Positions 25,060-32,705 are shown, counted from the first letter of the stretch. The stretch: 33,215 bases of DNA from Armatimonadota bacterium (GCA_035527535.1 DATLAK010000168.1:1-33215), one strand, 5' to 3'. Notes: generated by a model not told the origin, from the sequence alone. A program made the numbers and translations.

Positions 25060-26397
25060 TCACGCACCACCAAGAGTCAAAGCATACTGGTGGCGAGGCG
25101 TCCCATTGCGGTCGTACTGGTACAGGTGCACTGGAGGATTCATCCTCGGGTTAACTTGTTGACCCACCACGACGGCGCCGCCTGTCGGGCCTGCATAGAA
25201 AAGGTGGATTCCTCGGCAATTGGGAAAAGCGTTCTCAAGCGCAGCGAGAACGCCTCGCAATTGCCGCCCGAGGTTCGTAAGCTGGTCGCGTCGACGAAGC
25301 CAGTGCACCGACGGTTCTCGACATGCCAAGTCAACCTCGCATTTCGCACCCGGAACGACTACCCTCGTATCCGCCGGTCGAACCCTCGCACTTAGAGATA
25401 CACGCACCACGACATCCACCTCGTCACCAACACCCCCTGCCGGAACTCCACTTAGCGTCAGTTCATCATCATCGCATGCACAGGCGTCCTCCGCCCAGGA
25501 CCAGGATTGTCGATCTCGGTCAAACTGAAAGCAGTCCACGGCTATCCGGTCCGATAGTATGAACCCCAGGTGAATTGCGAGCGGTATCGGTGCAAGGCTG
25601 AAGACGGCAAGCCGTGGAACAGCGTTCCGGAGTCGAGCAACCGCCTGCCTGAGCAAGCCTTCCTGCCACCTCGCCTCAGCGGCCCAAGGGAGCGCGCCCA
25701 ACTCTGTCCGGACAATCAGTGGCTCCCCAAAGGCATGGACTGCTCCCAGTGCCGCTCTGGCGGATTGCACGTCAATAGGGGACAGCACGTCATGGACTAG
25801 CATCCAGCACGAACCCTGCAACGCGCCCACATTCCCTCCCGTCGCCCCATCCCGCTGCCCTTCACCAGTCATCTCCACCGGGGGAACACCAAGAAGCTCG
25901 GCCCTCTCTTGGGCGGAGAGCCCACACGCCATCTGCCACAGAGCTTCATTGTCCAGATGCTCGATCTGAATGCTGGCATATTCCTTCCGCTTGCCAAGAA
26001 GTGCTCTCGGCACCTCGGGAGGCAGGCCACGCCTTGAGTTATAGACGAAGATCCACTTTTTGAGATGATTGCCCCAGTACTCAACGGCCCCGCCCAAGTC
26101 CTCGTCGATCTTTGCAACCAGCCTCGCCTGCGACAACTTGTCAGGAGAATAAACCTGGTATATGACACCATTTCCGAACAGAAGCCCATCGCATTTCCCG
26201 TCACCCATCCTCCCATAGCTTGTGACAGCCATGAACTCAGGCTCTGTCCCCTTCAGGATCCTCTCGAACAGGCGCTGAAACTCCGTGGCGGTGCACTCGT
26301 GGCACAACAGCCTGAAGCGCAACCACTGATGCGCCAGAACCGGGCCATAGTTGCCTTCGGCACTCACTTCCGGCGAAGCCTCTGCACCATCTGCCAT
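25060..26397 (-). CDS. CBASS effector: nuclease-like domain fused to SAVED domain
   Basis: A 445-residue two-part protein at the end of the CD-NTase operon. The C-terminal half (about 185-445) matches the SAVED cyclic-oligonucleotide sensor. It has IPLAIHLGFILSDRI, VDVVVRVSLSARV and the hallmark GIHLFYAGPTGGAVVVGQ followed by VHLYQYDRN and YALTLG. The N-terminal ~170 residues look like a restriction-endonuclease-type fold: FQRLFERIL (Glu45), GDGKCDGLLFG (Asp70) and IYQVYSP (Gln81), giving a D...Q-x-Y where PD-(D/E)xK enzymes have E-x-K. This organisation parallels Cap4 (nuclease-SAVED), in which signal binding triggers DNA cleavage. The nuclease is not of the DUF4297 or HNH type that I recognise. 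ATG 26397 is used; GTG 26406 is also possible. It starts 20 bases after the 117-aa gene. Confidence 0.82.
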   Translation of the reverse strand: MADGAEASPEVSAEGNYGPVLAHQWLRFRLLCHECTATEFQRLFERILKGTEPEFMAVTSYGRMGDGKCDGLLFGNGVIYQVYSPDKLSQARLVAKIDEDLGGAVEYWGNHLKKWIFVYNSRRGLPPEVPRALLGKRKEYASIQIEHLDNEALWQMACGLSAQERAELLGVPPVEMTGEGQRDGATGGNVGALQGSCWMLVHDVLSPIDVQSARAALGAVHAFGEPLIVRTELGALPWAAEARWQEGLLRQAVARLRNAVPRLAVFSLAPIPLAIHLGFILSDRIAVDCFQFDRDRQSWSWAEDACACDDDELTLSGVPAGGVGDEVDVVVRVSLSARVRPADTRVVVPGAKCEVDLACREPSVHWLRRRDQLTNLGRQLRGVLAALENAFPNCRGIHLFYAGPTGGAVVVGQQVNPRMNPPVHLYQYDRNGTPRHQYALTLGGA

Positions 26398-26417
26398 ATC
26401 TCGCACCGTCGCTGCTA

Positions 26418-26771
26418 CTACTCTCTGTACTCTCCCCGCGCGTCTCTCAATATGCTGCCCCTTCTCCCCGTTCTCTTCTTAGCAATGATGTACGTACCCC
26501 GCTCAGTTCGCCGAAACGTCAGATGGCCAGAGTACTCACCACTTGATCGCAGAGCCTGAACGAGCTGATCGTATTTCGCCAGGACGTGTGCAGAGGGGCG
26601 CCTGCTATCCCGATCCTCGCGAACGCACCGATCGATGTCGGCAACGTATGCCTCGATCTGTTCAACCCGCGTCCGAAGCTCATCTCGTTGCTGCAAATCA
26701 TGCACCGAACAGAGAGCTTGTGTGACCGACGACACCAGCTGCAACCCCGCCAAGATCGACTCTACGAGCAT
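26418..26771 (-). CDS. 117-aa operon protein with ILRD-x-RGEY C-terminal tail
   Basis: No family recognised. It has a hydrophobic helix at the N-terminus (about residues 3-22, possibly amphipathic rather than membrane-spanning), a helical charged middle (about 25-75) and a short beta-like segment (HLTFRRTERGTYIIAKK). It ends with a basic tail, RTGRRGSILRDARGEYRE. The tail repeats that of the 58-aa protein encoded earlier in the same operon (GRTPTILRDPKGEY plus AQIA), with ten identical positions across the matching 16. ATG 26771 overlaps the JAMM peptidase gene by 10 bases. In an operon with E1, E2 and a JAMM peptidase, such a tail could be a conjugation or processing signal, with cleavage after Gly113 imagined. 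It could instead be a docking motif. Confidence 0.75.
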   Translation of the reverse strand: MLVESILAGLQLVSSVTQALCSVHDLQQRDELRTRVEQIEAYVADIDRCVREDRDSRRPSAHVLAKYDQLVQALRSSGEYSGHLTFRRTERGTYIIAKKRTGRRGSILRDARGEYRE

Positions 26772-27802
26772 GTTGGACCATCTCCGCTCGCCTCAGACTT
26801 GTCCCTCGACTTCTTGTCCTCGCTGACATCTTCACAGCATCGCGCACTACTCTGCCTGGCATACTGTCGCGCTCTATCCACCAACTCTTCGACGAGGCTG
26901 AACCTAGCCGTATCCAACGGGATCACTTCACTAACAAGAAGCTGGTCCCCGAGGAAAAGCGTCAACCTCGCACACAACCGCTCATCTCCCTCGCCCGGAT
27001 GCTCGTACTGCAATCCCACCGTCTCAGCACCACCAGGCCGCCACCTCCACATGATTGCCCCCGTCTTCAGGTCGCGCGTCGTCGTGACGCCAGGGAACAT
27101 GCGTTGCAGCCACTTCTGATCCTCGCTACGCAGGTGCCTCAACGGATCCGGTGTCTCACCTACAGACCCGAACCCCGGTCCAATCTGGCGAATCACCCGC
27201 TTCCTTGACATCCCCCGGACGCCAGTTGATGCTTTCTCTAGCAACCGTAGAATGGGCTCCAATGCATATTCGTGCCTGGTATGCCTGACCCGCCCACGTT
27301 CCACTTGCAGGCACTGATGCGAACCACGCACAAACAGATAATACGCTGCGTCCAACTTCCTGCCATTGATATTCCTAATCAACAACGCAAGGAAAGCATC
27401 CCCGTCGTACCGGGGATCATTCACCGTCTCTACGTAGTTCCGTTCATCGCCGGAACTAAGTTCCGACAATCCATTGCAGTGGTGGCTGTGCCAAGAGCCA
27501 ATGTAACGAATGCCTGGGTCCAGCGTCTGGACCAGTTCCAGCAACGAATCCTGATATATCCCGTCAGGAACCAGGTGCCCCGCTGAACGGTCGCCCCCAG
27601 GCCCCGAGTCAATGAAGCTCTCAACCTTGATCACGGTTGAATTCCGATCTCGGGTGATCCGACCAAGCAGTTTCCCTCCCTCCTCCACGTCAGAGCCCAT
27701 CACTGTGTGTGCAATTCGCCTGATCACAACTGATGCGACCTCCACTGACACAGACAAAGGCCCATCCCCTTGTCGAAGCACACGTGGTACCCACTCAAAC
27801 AC
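26762..27802 (-). CDS. JAMM/JAB-family isopeptidase with long C-terminal extension
   Basis: A 346-residue protein. The N-terminal ~150 residues are a Mov34/JAB metalloprotease domain with Glu40/Glu41 in the upstream EEGGKLLG position. The zinc motif H105-x-H107...S116-x-x-D119 (WHSHHCNGLSELSSGD) has eight residues between His and Ser instead of seven. In type II CBASS the equivalent peptidase (Cap3) removes E1/E2-made conjugates, but it is about half this length. The remaining ~200 residues are unassigned; they include an EDQKWLQRMFPG stretch reminiscent of KLARFFPG in the E2 encoded upstream. GTG 27802 is chosen because GGGGAGA lies six bases upstream; it overlaps the end of the E1 gene by eight bases. 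Confidence 0.85.
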   Translation of the reverse strand: MFEWVPRVLRQGDGPLSVSVEVASVVIRRIAHTVMGSDVEEGGKLLGRITRDRNSTVIKVESFIDSGPGGDRSAGHLVPDGIYQDSLLELVQTLDPGIRYIGSWHSHHCNGLSELSSGDERNYVETVNDPRYDGDAFLALLIRNINGRKLDAAYYLFVRGSHQCLQVERGRVRHTRHEYALEPILRLLEKASTGVRGMSRKRVIRQIGPGFGSVGETPDPLRHLRSEDQKWLQRMFPGVTTTRDLKTGAIMWRWRPGGAETVGLQYEHPGEGDERLCARLTLFLGDQLLVSEVIPLDTARFSLVEELVDRARQYARQSSARCCEDVSEDKKSRDKSEASGDGPTCS

Positions 27803-28655
27803 TGCTCGTCTCCCCTGGCATCCCTTGTCCACCGCAGCAGCACTCTTTCTGCGGCTTGAGCCTCATCTGTTTAGCCTCGAAATGGCTTCTGAATATCTTC
27901 CTCGCGGGTCGGTTCGCAAAGATCACCCAGTTCGCCCTCAGCCTCGGCACCGCAGTCTTCAAGTTCCTGCATAGGACTGACAGCGCCATCCTTGCCTGAA
28001 TCATAGCGATCATCTGAATATCGATGGACAATCCAGATGCCCGGAACTCGCGCTCCCCAAGTCCGTAGATTCTCTCCCGCTCTTCCTCCGTTAGTCCTAG
28101 CGCATCGTCGCTCAGGTCGATGCCACTTTTCAGCGCGAACAGTTGAAGACAACGGTAGCATCCGGTTTCCCCCGGAATGTACGCATACACCTCGCCCCCG
28201 ATTCCCGTCCTAAATACCGAAGCAGTCACGAAGGGCACGCCGATCTCCACACACTTGTCACTAACATATTCCCGCACGCTCTTCCGGTCGGGACAGGACA
28301 GAACCAGATCGGATTCCTTCATCGACTCTACGAACTCTGGAACTTGCATCACATCAGAGGCATATGACCGAACCTCCGCCGACGGGTTCCTGTCCAGAAT
28401 CCACTCCTTCTGGACGTCCACCTTCTGCCGCCCTACATCCCTTCTGAGCCGAGGATGCTTCACGAGATTCACGCTCTCGAGCGTGTCTGGATCATACAGA
28501 TCCCATCGTCTAATCCCGTTCATCGTCAAGTGATCGCATACCGGCGCCCCACCACTGCCCAGCCCGACCATCGTAACCCTCACATTCTCGAATTGCTTCG
28601 GGTTCAGCAGGTACTCAGTCCTACTGAAGTCGAGCGCTGGCCCACCATCGTTCAT
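27795..28655 (-). CDS. E1/ThiF-like adenylyltransferase
   Basis: A 286-residue ThiF/MoeB/E1-type protein that would adenylate the C-terminus of a modifier protein. It shows the nucleotide loop GLGSGGAP (31-38), the Asp-containing strand WDLYDPDTLESVNLVKHPR, the GRQKVD stretch (about 75-80), LVLSCPDRKSVREYV, and Cys166/Cys169 plus Cys272-274, probably the zinc pairs. In type II CBASS Cap2 the E1 and E2 domains are usually fused; here the E1 stands alone, next to a separate E2. The start ATG 28655 forms an ATGA overlap with the E2 stop and has GGAAGGA nine bases upstream. A longer frame to 28703 would run inside the E2 gene. The catalytic cysteine used for transfer is not obvious. Confidence 0.87.
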   Translation of the reverse strand: MNDGGPALDFSRTEYLLNPKQFENVRVTMVGLGSGGAPVCDHLTMNGIRRWDLYDPDTLESVNLVKHPRLRRDVGRQKVDVQKEWILDRNPSAEVRSYASDVMQVPEFVESMKESDLVLSCPDRKSVREYVSDKCVEIGVPFVTASVFRTGIGGEVYAYIPGETGCYRCLQLFALKSGIDLSDDALGLTEEERERIYGLGEREFRASGLSIDIQMIAMIQARMALSVLCRNLKTAVPRLRANWVIFANRPARKIFRSHFEAKQMRLKPQKECCCGGQGMPGETSSV

Positions 28656-29083
28656 CGGTGTTGGTCCTTCCCCGGCCAGCGCGTCCTCCCGCTCAATATC
28701 CATTTATCGTACTTGTTGAGCCATATCGCCGTCTTGGCAACAAGGAAGGCCAGCGAAAGTGACGTTGACCACTGCTCGCTCTTCATGACGCAAATGTTCC
28801 CGTTCTGGTAAACATGGGGACACCCTGCGGCTACCGTCGTACGTGGAAGTCGGATGCGCGGCAGGTCGTACGGGTAGTTCTCGCCAATCTCGATGCTGAT
28901 GTAATATGAATTGCCGTAGCTGGTCGACAGATGGCCCTGTGCCGATGTAACCCGGCCGTTGCTCCCATACAGCTTGATACCAGGAAAGAAACGCGCCAGT
29001 TTCTCCTGCTCAACCGCCATTCTGCTTCCGAGCAGGTCTGTCCCAGCGAAAATGATCTCCCGATTTGCCTCAAATCCTGCCAT
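28652..29083 (-). CDS. Stand-alone E2-like conjugating enzyme
   Basis: A 143-residue bacterial E2-fold protein. The central strands and Pro-rich turn are seen in ISIEIGENYPYDLPRIRLP (about 62-80). The active-site stretch CPHVYQNGNICVMKSEQW supplies the probable catalytic Cys98 in place of the eukaryotic HPN...C. The C-terminal helix AFLVAKTAIWLNKYDKWILSGRTRWPG is typical of the E2 associated with CD-NTase systems. It would take an activated modifier or CD-NTase C-terminus from the E1 and transfer it to a target. ATG 29083 shares its first base with the stop of the 58-aa gene (TGATG), and the 3' end overlaps the E1 start, so all three are translationally coupled. Confidence 0.87.
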   Translation of the reverse strand: MAGFEANREIIFAGTDLLGSRMAVEQEKLARFFPGIKLYGSNGRVTSAQGHLSTSYGNSYYISIEIGENYPYDLPRIRLPRTTVAAGCPHVYQNGNICVMKSEQWSTSLSLAFLVAKTAIWLNKYDKWILSGRTRWPGKDQHR

Positions 29084-29259
29084 CACGCTATCTGCGCATA
29101 CTCCCCTTTGGGGTCTCGCAGAATGGTAGGTGTCCTGCCTGCCCTTCGAGGCGCCTCTCCGGGTTTGTGCACATTCCCATCCTCGTCGATCTCTACGAGT
29201 TCCTCGCAGTTCTCTTGGTCCTCGAATGCCTCGTCTGTCCTTCTTGCATCAGCGGTCAT
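29083..29259 (-). CDS. 58-aa acidic protein with ILRD-x-KGEY C-terminal tail
   Basis: A small, probably disordered protein. The first ~30 residues are strongly acidic (AFEDQENCEELVEIDEDG) and the end is basic (APRRAGRTPTILRDPKGEYAQIA, quoted in part). Size and composition recall Pup, though there is no sequence match and no terminal GGQ/GGE. The tail is shared with the 117-aa protein of the same operon. ATG 29259 is chosen because AGAGGAG lies nine bases upstream; the frame extends further but only from a TTG. Its stop overlaps the E2 start. It is a candidate modifier or dedicated substrate of the neighbouring E1-E2, with Gly52 a possible site exposed by the JAMM peptidase; this is inference. 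Confidence 0.72.
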   Translation of the reverse strand: MTADARRTDEAFEDQENCEELVEIDEDGNVHKPGEAPRRAGRTPTILRDPKGEYAQIA

Positions 29260-29350
29260 CTCGCACATCTCCTCTCGTCTTTGTCCATGCAATCGTCCGC
29301 GTCATTCACCTCGCTCCGACCCGACGCGCTCTCATGGCGATGACATCGCC

Positions 29351-30304
29351 CTACTGGCCTACCTCGCGAGGGAAGTAAGAATCACCCAGCAGGCACTTCC
29401 ACGCTTTGATGGCGCTCTCCTCATCGCCAGCCGCGTTGGCCTCCGCTGCCACCTCATGCCACTGCTTCCCGGCCTCATGAAACCGGCGATAGGCACTCCG
29501 GGTCCACTCGTTCCCGGAGAAAACCAGCTTCTCCCCGCACGGAGTCCGCAATCCGGAACTCCCCGCCTTCTCCGCATCGAACCCCGCAATCGCACGAAGC
29601 ACCTGCTCAATGCACTCGCCCGTGCTTCCCGCGTACACGGAGCCCCTCAGCGCATACAGCAGGCATTCGAGATGGAAGGACGCCGCGTTGCTCATACCAT
29701 CCTCCAGTCTCGTTGCGCGCAGATGCTTGAGGACCTTGACCATTGGAATGAACGACCCGTCCGTCTGATCGTTCTTCTCGGACAATAGCCGCTGATGTTC
29801 CCTGGCATACGTTTGCGTCCATTCGCCGCCATCCGCCCCAGCAGCCTCCGGGTCGAAAACCCAGAACGGTTCATGCTCAAAACGGGCGCCAGGTTTTCTC
29901 AGCGCTGGCAACACCTCCACCTTCACAGACGCCAACTCTACCTTAACACACATGCTCTGCTCATCATAACGGATCTTGTCCGTGTACCTACTGTCTGCCG
30001 CAATGCTATCCGCCACCATCACGAAGATTTGGTCGCGTGTCTCTCGGTTGGCCGTTGTCTTGTAGGAGACACTGCAAAGAGCCACAATGTCCACGTCGTT
30101 AATGGTATGTATCGCTGTGTGCCGTCGGTAGGAACCCTGGATGAAACATCTCACCCTGAGGTCACCCGCAGGGCCGTCCACATCCTCAATGAGTGATCGA
30201 ATCGTCGACTGTGCGCTCAACGCTCGGCGCACGTACGTAGGAGAGGGGTTGAGCCTTCTGAAGAAAGCGTCGAAGTTGTCTGTAAGCTTGTGAACAGCAG
30301 CCAT
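29351..30304 (-). CDS. CD-NTase (cGAS/DncV-like nucleotidyltransferase)
   Basis: A 317-residue SMODS-type nucleotidyltransferase, the signal-making enzyme of CBASS. The active site is visible: GSY (57-59) in FIQGSYRRHTAIH, the metal pair Asp70/Asp72 in NDVDIVAL, and a third acidic residue, Glu130, in VKVEVLPAL, where Asp is more usual. The helical C-terminal half ends ...LLGDSYFPREVGQ. In type II CBASS the CD-NTase C-terminus is attached to targets by the E1/E2 protein, and it generally ends in Gly or Ala; here Gln follows Gly. The frame extends to 30367, but that start lies inside the -35 box. ATG 30304 is preferred, ATG 30325 being possible if the message is nearly leaderless. It is the first gene of the seven-gene operon. 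Confidence 0.88.
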   Translation of the reverse strand: MAAVHKLTDNFDAFFRRLNPSPTYVRRALSAQSTIRSLIEDVDGPAGDLRVRCFIQGSYRRHTAIHTINDVDIVALCSVSYKTTANRETRDQIFVMVADSIAADSRYTDKIRYDEQSMCVKVELASVKVEVLPALRKPGARFEHEPFWVFDPEAAGADGGEWTQTYAREHQRLLSEKNDQTDGSFIPMVKVLKHLRATRLEDGMSNAASFHLECLLYALRGSVYAGSTGECIEQVLRAIAGFDAEKAGSSGLRTPCGEKLVFSGNEWTRSAYRRFHEAGKQWHEVAAEANAAGDEESAIKAWKCLLGDSYFPREVGQ

Positions 30305-30338
30305 AATCGCCCCCAAGGCGCCCATCACTTCACATGGT

Positions 30339-30367
30339 ATTCTACCTACCTGCACTCTCCTTGTCAA
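30339..30367 (-). promoter_or_regulatory. Sigma70-type promoter of the CBASS-like operon
   Basis: Minus strand: consensus TTGACA (30367-30362), 17-base spacer, TAGAAT (30344-30339). Transcription would begin near 30332, about 28 bases before the preferred CD-NTase start. This argues against the longer CD-NTase reading frame. No operator repeat is evident nearby. Confidence 0.75.
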
Positions 30368-31510: not shown

Positions 31511-31693
31511 GTGGCAATGGGCAAAGACTTCGAGCTGAACTACGAGCCAGTACCCGCGGACGACGCACAGGAGCGCCTGTCCCGCGCCCTGGACATCCTG
31601 CTTGCCGCCGGCCAACGTGCACGCCTCGCAAACAAGGGGGAGCAGGTTGATCGACACGGTTCAGCTGAAGTTCCGCAGGATTCCGACGACTGA
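31511..31693 (+). CDS. Small conserved-looking ORF ahead of the replication gene
   Basis: A 60-residue ORF (GTG 31511, or ATG 31517) that begins MGKDFELNYEPVPADDAQERLSRALDILLAAGQ (quoted in part) and then becomes low in structure. The first 40 residues look like a genuine small acidic-helical protein; the last 15 overlap the replication gene in another frame. Small proteins of this kind often precede replication or recombination genes in integrative elements. Function unknown. Confidence 0.5.
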   Translation: MAMGKDFELNYEPVPADDAQERLSRALDILLAAGQRARLANKGEQVDRHGSAEVPQDSDD

Positions 31694-32705
31694 ACAGCTT
31701 CACGACCACTGGGAGCAGATGGCCCACACCATCCCAGGCAGTCCCACCCCTCGCCTCAGGTACGTCTACAACACCCAGCCCTCAGACGGGATCGCACTCA
31801 AGGCTACCTACCTGCCCCAGGACTATCACGGCCAGGGCATGCTGCTGATAGAGCTGTCGCTGCCCAAGGCACTGTTCGGCGTCAACTGGCGCATGATCCC
31901 CGATATCCCATCCGCCATCAGCGCCTCAGACAGCGCCATCCGCCTTCTTCCCGGCCTCCCCGACCTCGGCAGCATCGGTCATGGCGAGATCGTACGGCTC
32001 GACGCCTGCTACAACTACCAGGTGGGTGACGACATGCAGCCCTACCTACAAGCCTTGTCCCGCCTGGAGTATCCGCGACGACAGACGGTTCCATTCCTGG
32101 GCACCGGCGTCGAATACCGTTCCCGCCGCTGCAAGACCAAGTTCTACGACAAGTACGCCGAGACAGACAAACGCCGCCTTCCACCAGAACTCTGGCCCCC
32201 CATTGGCACTCTCCGCCACGAGACCACTTATCGCCGCAGCCGGGAAGTCAAATCAGCTTGCCGCGTCGAACGCGAGGAGACGCTCACCCTTGCCGACCTC
32301 GACCCCGACGCCGTGCTTGAGATCCTGCGCCGCGACCTGGCCTTCCTCGGCATCTACGGCTGCTCCTTCGCCACCCGCGAACTCGCCCTGGAGCGCCTGT
32401 GCCACCGCTACGGCGAAAACCGCGGCCTGCGTCTCTTCGGGGCGCTGCACGCGCAGCAGGAAAACCATCGAAAGACCTTCGCCAACAAGGTTCGCATCGA
32501 GCGCCACAGCGTCTCCAGACTCCTGCGCGACCTCCACGCCTCGGGCATCGCTCCCGCCATCGTTGAAGGCAAACCTCTCCCTCCTCTCGAAATCACGTGG
32601 CCGCCCGAGAACAACCCTCTCCCTGCTCCTCGCAGGAGTCCACTCGCCTCCGAAGAATCCTCTCCTTCATCCGAAGAAGTTTCCAATGAAATCACCTCCA
32701 AATAG
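31647..32705 (+). CDS. Phage/plasmid replication protein (filamentous-phage gpII/CRI-like)
   Basis: A 352-residue protein resembling the replication initiators of filamentous-phage-like elements. It has an N-terminal MIDTVQLKF, LKATYLPQDYHGQGMLLIELSLPKALFGVNW, the core IVRLDACYNYQVGDD, TGVEYRSRRCKTKFYDKYAE and LRHETTYR. Such proteins nick a double-strand origin to begin rolling-circle replication, and tyrosines in the core are the likely nucleophiles. TTG 31647 is selected because GGGGGAG lies about five bases upstream and the family starts with MIDT-like sequence. The C-terminus is Ser/Glu/Pro-rich. Inverted repeats immediately downstream may be its origin. Confidence 0.75.
   Translation: MIDTVQLKFRRIPTTEQLHDHWEQMAHTIPGSPTPRLRYVYNTQPSDGIALKATYLPQDYHGQGMLLIELSLPKALFGVNWRMIPDIPSAISASDSAIRLLPGLPDLGSIGHGEIVRLDACYNYQVGDDMQPYLQALSRLEYPRRQTVPFLGTGVEYRSRRCKTKFYDKYAETDKRRLPPELWPPIGTLRHETTYRRSREVKSACRVEREETLTLADLDPDAVLEILRRDLAFLGIYGCSFATRELALERLCHRYGENRGLRLFGALHAQQENHRKTFANKVRIERHSVSRLLRDLHASGIAPAIVEGKPLPPLEITWPPENNPLPAPRRSPLASEESSPSSEEVSNEITSK

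Follow-up and report, generated by a model that had tools for sequence, protein, structure and literature searches.

A C-terminal tail shared by two small proteins of a CBASS-like operon, and its likely relation to a small-protein family of uncultured phage contigs

Why do two small proteins with unrelated bodies, encoded in the same operon as ubiquitin-type enzymes, end in nearly the same sequence? The question is raised by a stretch of 33,215 nucleotides from an Armatimonadota bacterium (GCA_035527535.1, DATLAK010000168.1:1-33215), which was analysed over its full length and is called the window below. On its minus strand an operon encodes, in this order, a cGAS/DncV-like nucleotidyltransferase (CD-NTase), a protein of 58 amino acids (aa), a ubiquitin-conjugating-type enzyme (E2), a ubiquitin-activating-type enzyme (E1), a JAMM peptidase, a protein of 117 aa (S117) and a SAVED effector, the genes overlapping or being closely spaced (Table 1). 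The operon resembles the cyclic oligonucleotide-based antiphage signalling systems (CBASS), with E1 and E2 split. A sequence-only reading of the window had noticed the common tail and suggested that it may be a modifier-type C-terminus, possibly trimmed by the JAMM peptidase, or a recruitment signal. We report here that the tail is real, that the 58-aa protein is likely a divergent member of a small-protein family named here after its ENLGGEY end, and that the same family is encoded by uncultured viral contigs.

When GRTPTILRDPKGEYAQ of the 58-aa protein is set against GRRGSILRDARGEYRE of S117, 9 of the 16 positions are identical (G, R, I, L, R, D, G, E and Y), one fewer than the ten counted in the sequence-only reading, and the T/S and K/R exchanges are conservative. 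The likeness itself was confirmed, as a local alignment of the whole proteins gave a score of 58, which was reached by 1 of 20,000 shuffles. Both open reading frames (ORFs) and their tails were found where they had been placed, and the E2, E1 and JAMM genes do lie between them. The motif [ILMV].?R[DEN].{1,3}GE[YFW] occurs exactly twice in the six frames of the whole window, with no third copy of the tail, which extends the earlier remark that none was present nearby. Its core, R[DEN].{1,3}GE[YFW], is near the C-terminus in none of the 2,517 mechanical ORFs taken from other loci. At seven of the nine identical residues the two genes use different codons; the likeness is therefore at the protein level and reflects selection on the protein, and a recent duplication of the tail DNA is ruled out.

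The closest relatives of the window E1 belong to Armatimonadota (locus L006; E1 37%), Acidobacteriota (L030), a Mesorhizobium plasmid (L003) and Alphaproteobacteria (L052). In all four loci, the gene directly before E2 encodes a small protein ending with KPLTMRENLGGEY, to which SQKEHR is appended in L006, AQVSRPT in L030 and nothing in L003 and L052, which both stop exactly at GGEY. All 13 residues of this tail are identical across the four loci and three phyla, and most of their codons differ, so that within the small protein the tail is conserved best, a positive outcome of the homologue check proposed in the sequence-only reading. The Gly is internal in every copy (KG-EYAQIA in the 58-aa protein, RG-EYRE in S117 and GG-EY in the homologues). 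The stop codon of the small gene overlaps the E2 start in the window (TGATG), L030 and L006, and the small protein of L052 has no clear start codon. The four operons add a Phd/YefM-E2 fusion and a protein with a metallo-beta-lactamase (MBL) fold, and a patatin or a predicted membrane protein is found in place of CD-NTase and SAVED. In these MBL-type operons neither a beta-grasp ubiquitin-like protein (Ubl) nor a CD-NTase was seen, and no candidate substrate is evident other than the small protein.

Searches with E1 produced a tail-bearing operon for 1 of 289 in Alphaproteobacteria and for none of 399 in Pseudomonadota, none of 266 genomes from the class of a Gammaproteobacteria metagenome-assembled genome and none of 277 in Actinomycetota; the more distant E1 matches in Actinomycetota were likewise devoid of a tail-type small protein. 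Matches in the plasmid loci L016 and L017 and a KPLTMRE end in L010 were discarded as chance. Two actinomycetotal loci, L047 and L048, hold E1/JAMM-type operons beside proteins of about 1,140 aa and small proteins sharing IRI.EDG.IISS.GE, with no ENLGGEY tail. The Phd/YefM-E2 fusion is a second E2-like protein with an N-terminal antitoxin-like domain (L006, 6989-7528; L030, 6874-7401; L003, 5519-6049; L052, 7588-7061); L006 and L030 retain the E2 Cys, where both alphaproteobacterial copies have a Ser. The E1 gene of the Mesorhizobium plasmid is frameshifted (L003, 5900-6400), its nucleotide-binding start lying in another frame.

Ten uncultured viral loci (L053/L063, L054/L064, L062 and L065-L071) encode the ENLGGEY family at 44-64% identity. 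They were found by a back-translated tail pattern and then by a profile scan of viral contigs. The members, mostly 57-67 aa long, are characterised by ILPNGE[IV]R and by the C-terminal tail [KQ]-x-[LI]-T-x-x-E-N-L-G-G-E-Y. According to PHROGs, most of the ten loci adjoin portal, terminase, scaffold or major head genes: the portal phrog_156 in L065 and L066, a terminase and the portal phrog_2662 in L067, the major head phrog_264 and the neck phrog_222 in L064, a large terminase in L068 and L069, a small terminase in L063 and L071, and scaffold and head genes in L070. In L064, L065 and L066 there is an overlap between the small gene and the gene upstream of it. No E1, E2, Phd-E2, JAMM or MBL gene was detected in the fetched DNA of the ten loci (tblastn, 1e-3), the same queries being strong in L006 and L052, and a single-protein E1 scan of the viral contigs was also negative. 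Since the tail is kept in contigs free of these genes, E1 and JAMM cannot be the general reason for its conservation. The viral tails are more diverse (TFRENL, TLRENL, TFTENL, TMHENL), and for this reason a capture from phage is favoured. Cultured phages showed no family member at useful E-values. A search of the viral contigs with a window-like tail pattern returned L055-L061, which turned out to be unrelated proteins, and the sequence of the 58-aa protein itself drew no relatives from viral contigs. The domain of the tail family in L065 (5995-7065) continues in frame into a protein of about 290 aa, which begins with a signal-peptide-like stretch.

The 58-aa protein likely belongs to this family as a divergent member, judging from its size, its slot in the operon, its coupling to E2 and its collinear landmarks. 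In the family, EIxx[DN]Gx[VI] is followed by R[DE]...GEY, and the 58-aa protein presents EIDEDGNV and then RDPKGEY. The reading that we favour, tentatively and at less than an even chance, is that the 58-aa protein is a dedicated small partner of the split E1/E2/JAMM module, descended from the phage head-module family and acting as a bait or adaptor. A phage head-module protein of about 60 residues would have been captured by a defence operon, the tail being a docking element and not merely a processed end. The defence copy would dock on, or compete at, the phage head assembly, and would bring, or report to, the co-encoded E2, E1 and JAMM proteins, whose action may then be directed at the bound target or set the effector free. 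S117 would have a helical body to which a second such tail is attached. As the same tail is present in phage proteins, away from any E1, E2 or JAMM, and in defence-operon proteins, the simplest common partner would be a phage head or packaging component, and docking is preferred to a modifier role because it covers both contexts with one partner. The common tail, the family, the synteny and the phage context are observed; we infer that the window proteins belong to the family, as well as the docking, the identity of the partner, the direction of the capture and the effect on the phage. In a more general and somewhat doubtful form of this reading, a phage head-morphogenesis protein would have been domesticated by some E1/E2/JAMM defence operons; its invariant tail, identical letter by letter to that of phage head-module proteins, would let the ubiquitin-like system recognise assembling phage particles or would steer it onto them, and the window operon would have spread this tail onto two unrelated bodies.

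Several observations weigh against this scheme. The score of the 58-aa protein with the family profile was equalled by 48 of 5000 and 97 of 5000 shuffles, and among 3,144 ends of other ORFs there are 82 that fit the tail profile no less well than the 58-aa protein (p about 0.01-0.03 in all, weak for the sequence alone). The window tails are devoid of ENLGG. S117 has no match to the family profile at all and is linked to the family only through the likeness of its tail to that of the 58-aa protein. L062, one of the viral loci, cannot be assigned clearly to a phage head module, a tree of 14 members was not resolved and does not give the direction of transfer, and an AlphaFold model of E1 built from two rows reached a predicted local distance difference test score of 35.

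A further point bearing on these readings is the end of the CD-NTase. In type II CBASS, the terminal Gly or Ala on the CD-NTase tail is the residue conjugated by Cap2 (PMC10097602; PMC11153139), and canonical type II cyclases from six plasmids possess a flexible tail ending in G or A, for example RPIKDAPQG, KPNKPGGFA and RPTEPKGFG. The window CD-NTase stops at ...LLGDSYFPREVGQ (...DSYFPREVGQ) with no disordered tail of this kind, so that the usual conjugated end is missing in the window operon and a separate partner is plausible. All four functional parts of type II CBASS (CD-NTase, Cap2 E1-E2, Cap3 JAMM and SAVED effector) are nevertheless present: the JAMM protein corresponds to Cap3 in its PADLOC JAB match and aligned motif residues, and the SAVED protein to an oligonucleotide-sensing effector. 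The differences are that Cap2 is an E2-E1 fusion whereas the window E2 (144 aa) and E1 (302 aa) each have an ORF of their own, that the CD-NTase is without a conjugatable tail, that the JAMM protein has a long C-terminal extension and that two small tail proteins are added. No tail-type small protein was found in the canonical type II CBASS loci examined. In two related split E2/E1 operons (L004, 7158-7805; L031, 5214-5946) the CD-NTase is apparently frameshifted or decayed, the reading in L004 ending in ...LFGSTFGA.

The proposal of a modifier-type C-terminus, as formulated in the sequence-only reading, was thus upheld in part. In its full form the JAMM peptidase would trim after the Gly (between KG and EY, or GG and EY), E1 would adenylate the new C-terminus and E2 would conjugate it, replacing the C-terminus of the CD-NTase, with S117 as a second modifier. 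This would fit the position of the best-conserved tail always directly upstream of E2, the want of another candidate substrate in the MBL-type operons, the intact E2 Cys and JAMM residues, and the ...FPREVGQ end of the window CD-NTase compared with the canonical Gly/Ala tails known to be conjugated (PMC10097602; PMC11153139); Cap2 also shows that a substrate without beta-grasp is possible (PMC12355090). However, the Glu-Tyr that follows the Gly does not vary in any copy, as trimmed extensions usually do, two homologues stop at GGEY, the window tails have a single Gly, and the same tail is kept in the ten viral contigs lacking these enzymes. The tail is not simply a JAMM-trimmed modifier end, since the family occurs in viral contigs without E1, E2 and JAMM. 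We put the modifier model in second place, after the captured phage head-module protein, and regard it from the sequence as rather unlikely. A combined scheme, in which the bait is itself conjugated, is possible. The other alternative of the sequence-only reading, an uncleaved linear tail docking both small proteins on the E1, E2 or JAMM protein of their own operon for assembly or regulation, would account for invariant residues extending past the Gly to the Tyr, for a motif common to two proteins of the same operon with unrelated bodies and for the translational coupling of the small gene to E2; it leaves unexplained why phage head modules conserve the tail, and appears improbable.

The near-identical tails in both contexts could also mean an origin of the family in the defence operon, the phage copies being competitive inhibitors of the E1/E2/JAMM module. 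We give this a small chance only, as the viral members are more diverse, lie in structural modules, often translationally coupled, and not in accessory regions, and the defence system is rare. There is an equally slight chance that the tails of the 58-aa protein and S117 are related only to each other, and that the 58-aa protein resembles the ENLGGEY family through chance and gene position; the weak profile scores point in this direction, and the same size, slot and overlapping start, with EIxx(D/N)Gx(V/I) and R(D/E)...GEY collinear and in order, point in the other. MccB acts on a short peptide and is among the better PDB matches of E1 (2.4e-13), and a microcin C-like pathway can be imagined in which the E1 homologue would modify the C-terminus of a small ribosomal peptide into a toxic or signalling product. 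This is very improbable, because such a pathway has no place for E2 and JAMM, the matches to ThiF and SUMO E1 equal or exceed that to MccB in score, and no exporter or immunity gene was seen.

The operon represents a variant both of type II CBASS and of the E1/E2/JAB operons of the 6A type, published in 2006 (PMC1779556). The 6A-MBL operons encode an E2-E1-JAB triple-module protein and a metallo-beta-lactamase (PMC1779556 row 6a, NCBIfam NF058523); L006, L030, L003 and L052 carry the same E2, E1, JAMM and MBL-fold parts and differ in that the genes are split and that a Phd/YefM-E2 fusion and the small tail protein are present in addition. The genes of the window operon are also split, CD-NTase and SAVED stand in place of MBL, and no operon protein matched an MBL family. 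As in the bacterial Ubl (6d) operons (PMC1779556 row 6d), a small protein with a conserved Gly close to its C-terminus adjoins E1, E2 and JAB. The window protein differs in having 58 aa, a conserved E-Y after the Gly and no beta-grasp match: it gave no Pfam, NCBIfam or PADLOC match above cut-off, and the PDB matches of a small-protein homologue were none better than E 0.5. The 6d operons are likened to the Bil/Bub type. Pup/UBact is another comparison, the likeness lying in a length of about 60 aa, an acidic and probably disordered chain and, in the homologues, a tail with GG-E; in contrast, the window operon is of ThiF/E2/JAMM type, with no PafA/Dop-type ligase among its proteins (SMODS, UQ_con, ThiF, JAB, SAVED) and no sequence match.

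The small tail protein fell into no family of the libraries scanned, namely Pfam (window and L003 copies), PADLOC (window copy), and NCBIfam and PHROGs (several members). The literature searched gave nothing relevant for the tail motif and no description of the protein, which is weak evidence of novelty given its incomplete coverage. A compact, apparently non-Ubl small-protein family is thus tied to E1/E2/JAMM genes in several phyla, and the tail is short enough to be synthesised as a peptide. The phage family itself had no match in PHROGs. If the phage link is true, the system would meet the phage through a copied head-assembly protein.

Table 1. Genes of the window operon and location of the two tails.
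Feature	Coordinates	Strand	Evidence and remarks
CD-NTase (SMODS nucleotidyltransferase)	29351..30367	-	Pfam SMODS 3.6e-14, DncV-like 1.7e-05; PADLOC Cyclase 3.8e-32; ends ...AWKCLLGDSYFPREVGQ
58-aa small protein (S69/S58)	29083..29259	-	No Pfam, NCBIfam or PADLOC family above cut-off; collinear with the L006, L030 and L003 small proteins
C-terminal tail GRTPTILRDPKGEYAQIA of the 58-aa protein	29086..29139	-	ILRDPKGEY core 29098-29124
Stand-alone E2, 144 aa, active-site Cys (NGNICVMKSEQW)	28652..29086	-	Pfam UQ_con 7.3e-07, above cut-off; alignment; UBE2W-like PDB matches
Stand-alone E1, 302 aa, ThiF fold	27795..28703	-	Pfam ThiF 1.1e-31; alignment; PDB ThiF, MccB, SAE2 and Cap2 matches
JAMM/JAB peptidase, C-terminal extension	26762..27832	-	PADLOC JAB 7.7e-08; Pfam Prok-JAB 0.013, below cut-off
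117-aa small protein (S117)	26418..26771	-	Start overlaps JAMM stop
C-terminal tail GRRGSILRDARGEYRE of S117	26421..26468	-	ILRDARGEY core 26427-26453
SAVED-domain effector	25060..26406	-	Pfam SAVED 2.2e-35; PADLOC effector/endonuclease models on the SAVED half

For the 58-aa protein, the ATG at 29259 is preceded by AGGAG at a suitable spacing, and the TTG at 29292 is a possible alternative start (69 aa). S117 has no relatives in plasmids or viral contigs, and its best PHROGs match reached only 0.15. Alignment of E1 showed zinc-type cysteines (CxxC...CC), and no Cys was seen at the usual crossover-loop position. In the JAMM protein, the catalytic Glu and HSH...S..D are intact in an alignment with four homologues. 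The N-terminal part of the SAVED effector is uncharacterised and is possibly a nuclease. Near the defence operon, positions 31602-32705 on the plus strand may encode a protein of rolling-circle replication, the match to Pfam Phage_CRI (E 0.0011) falling slightly short of the cut-off.

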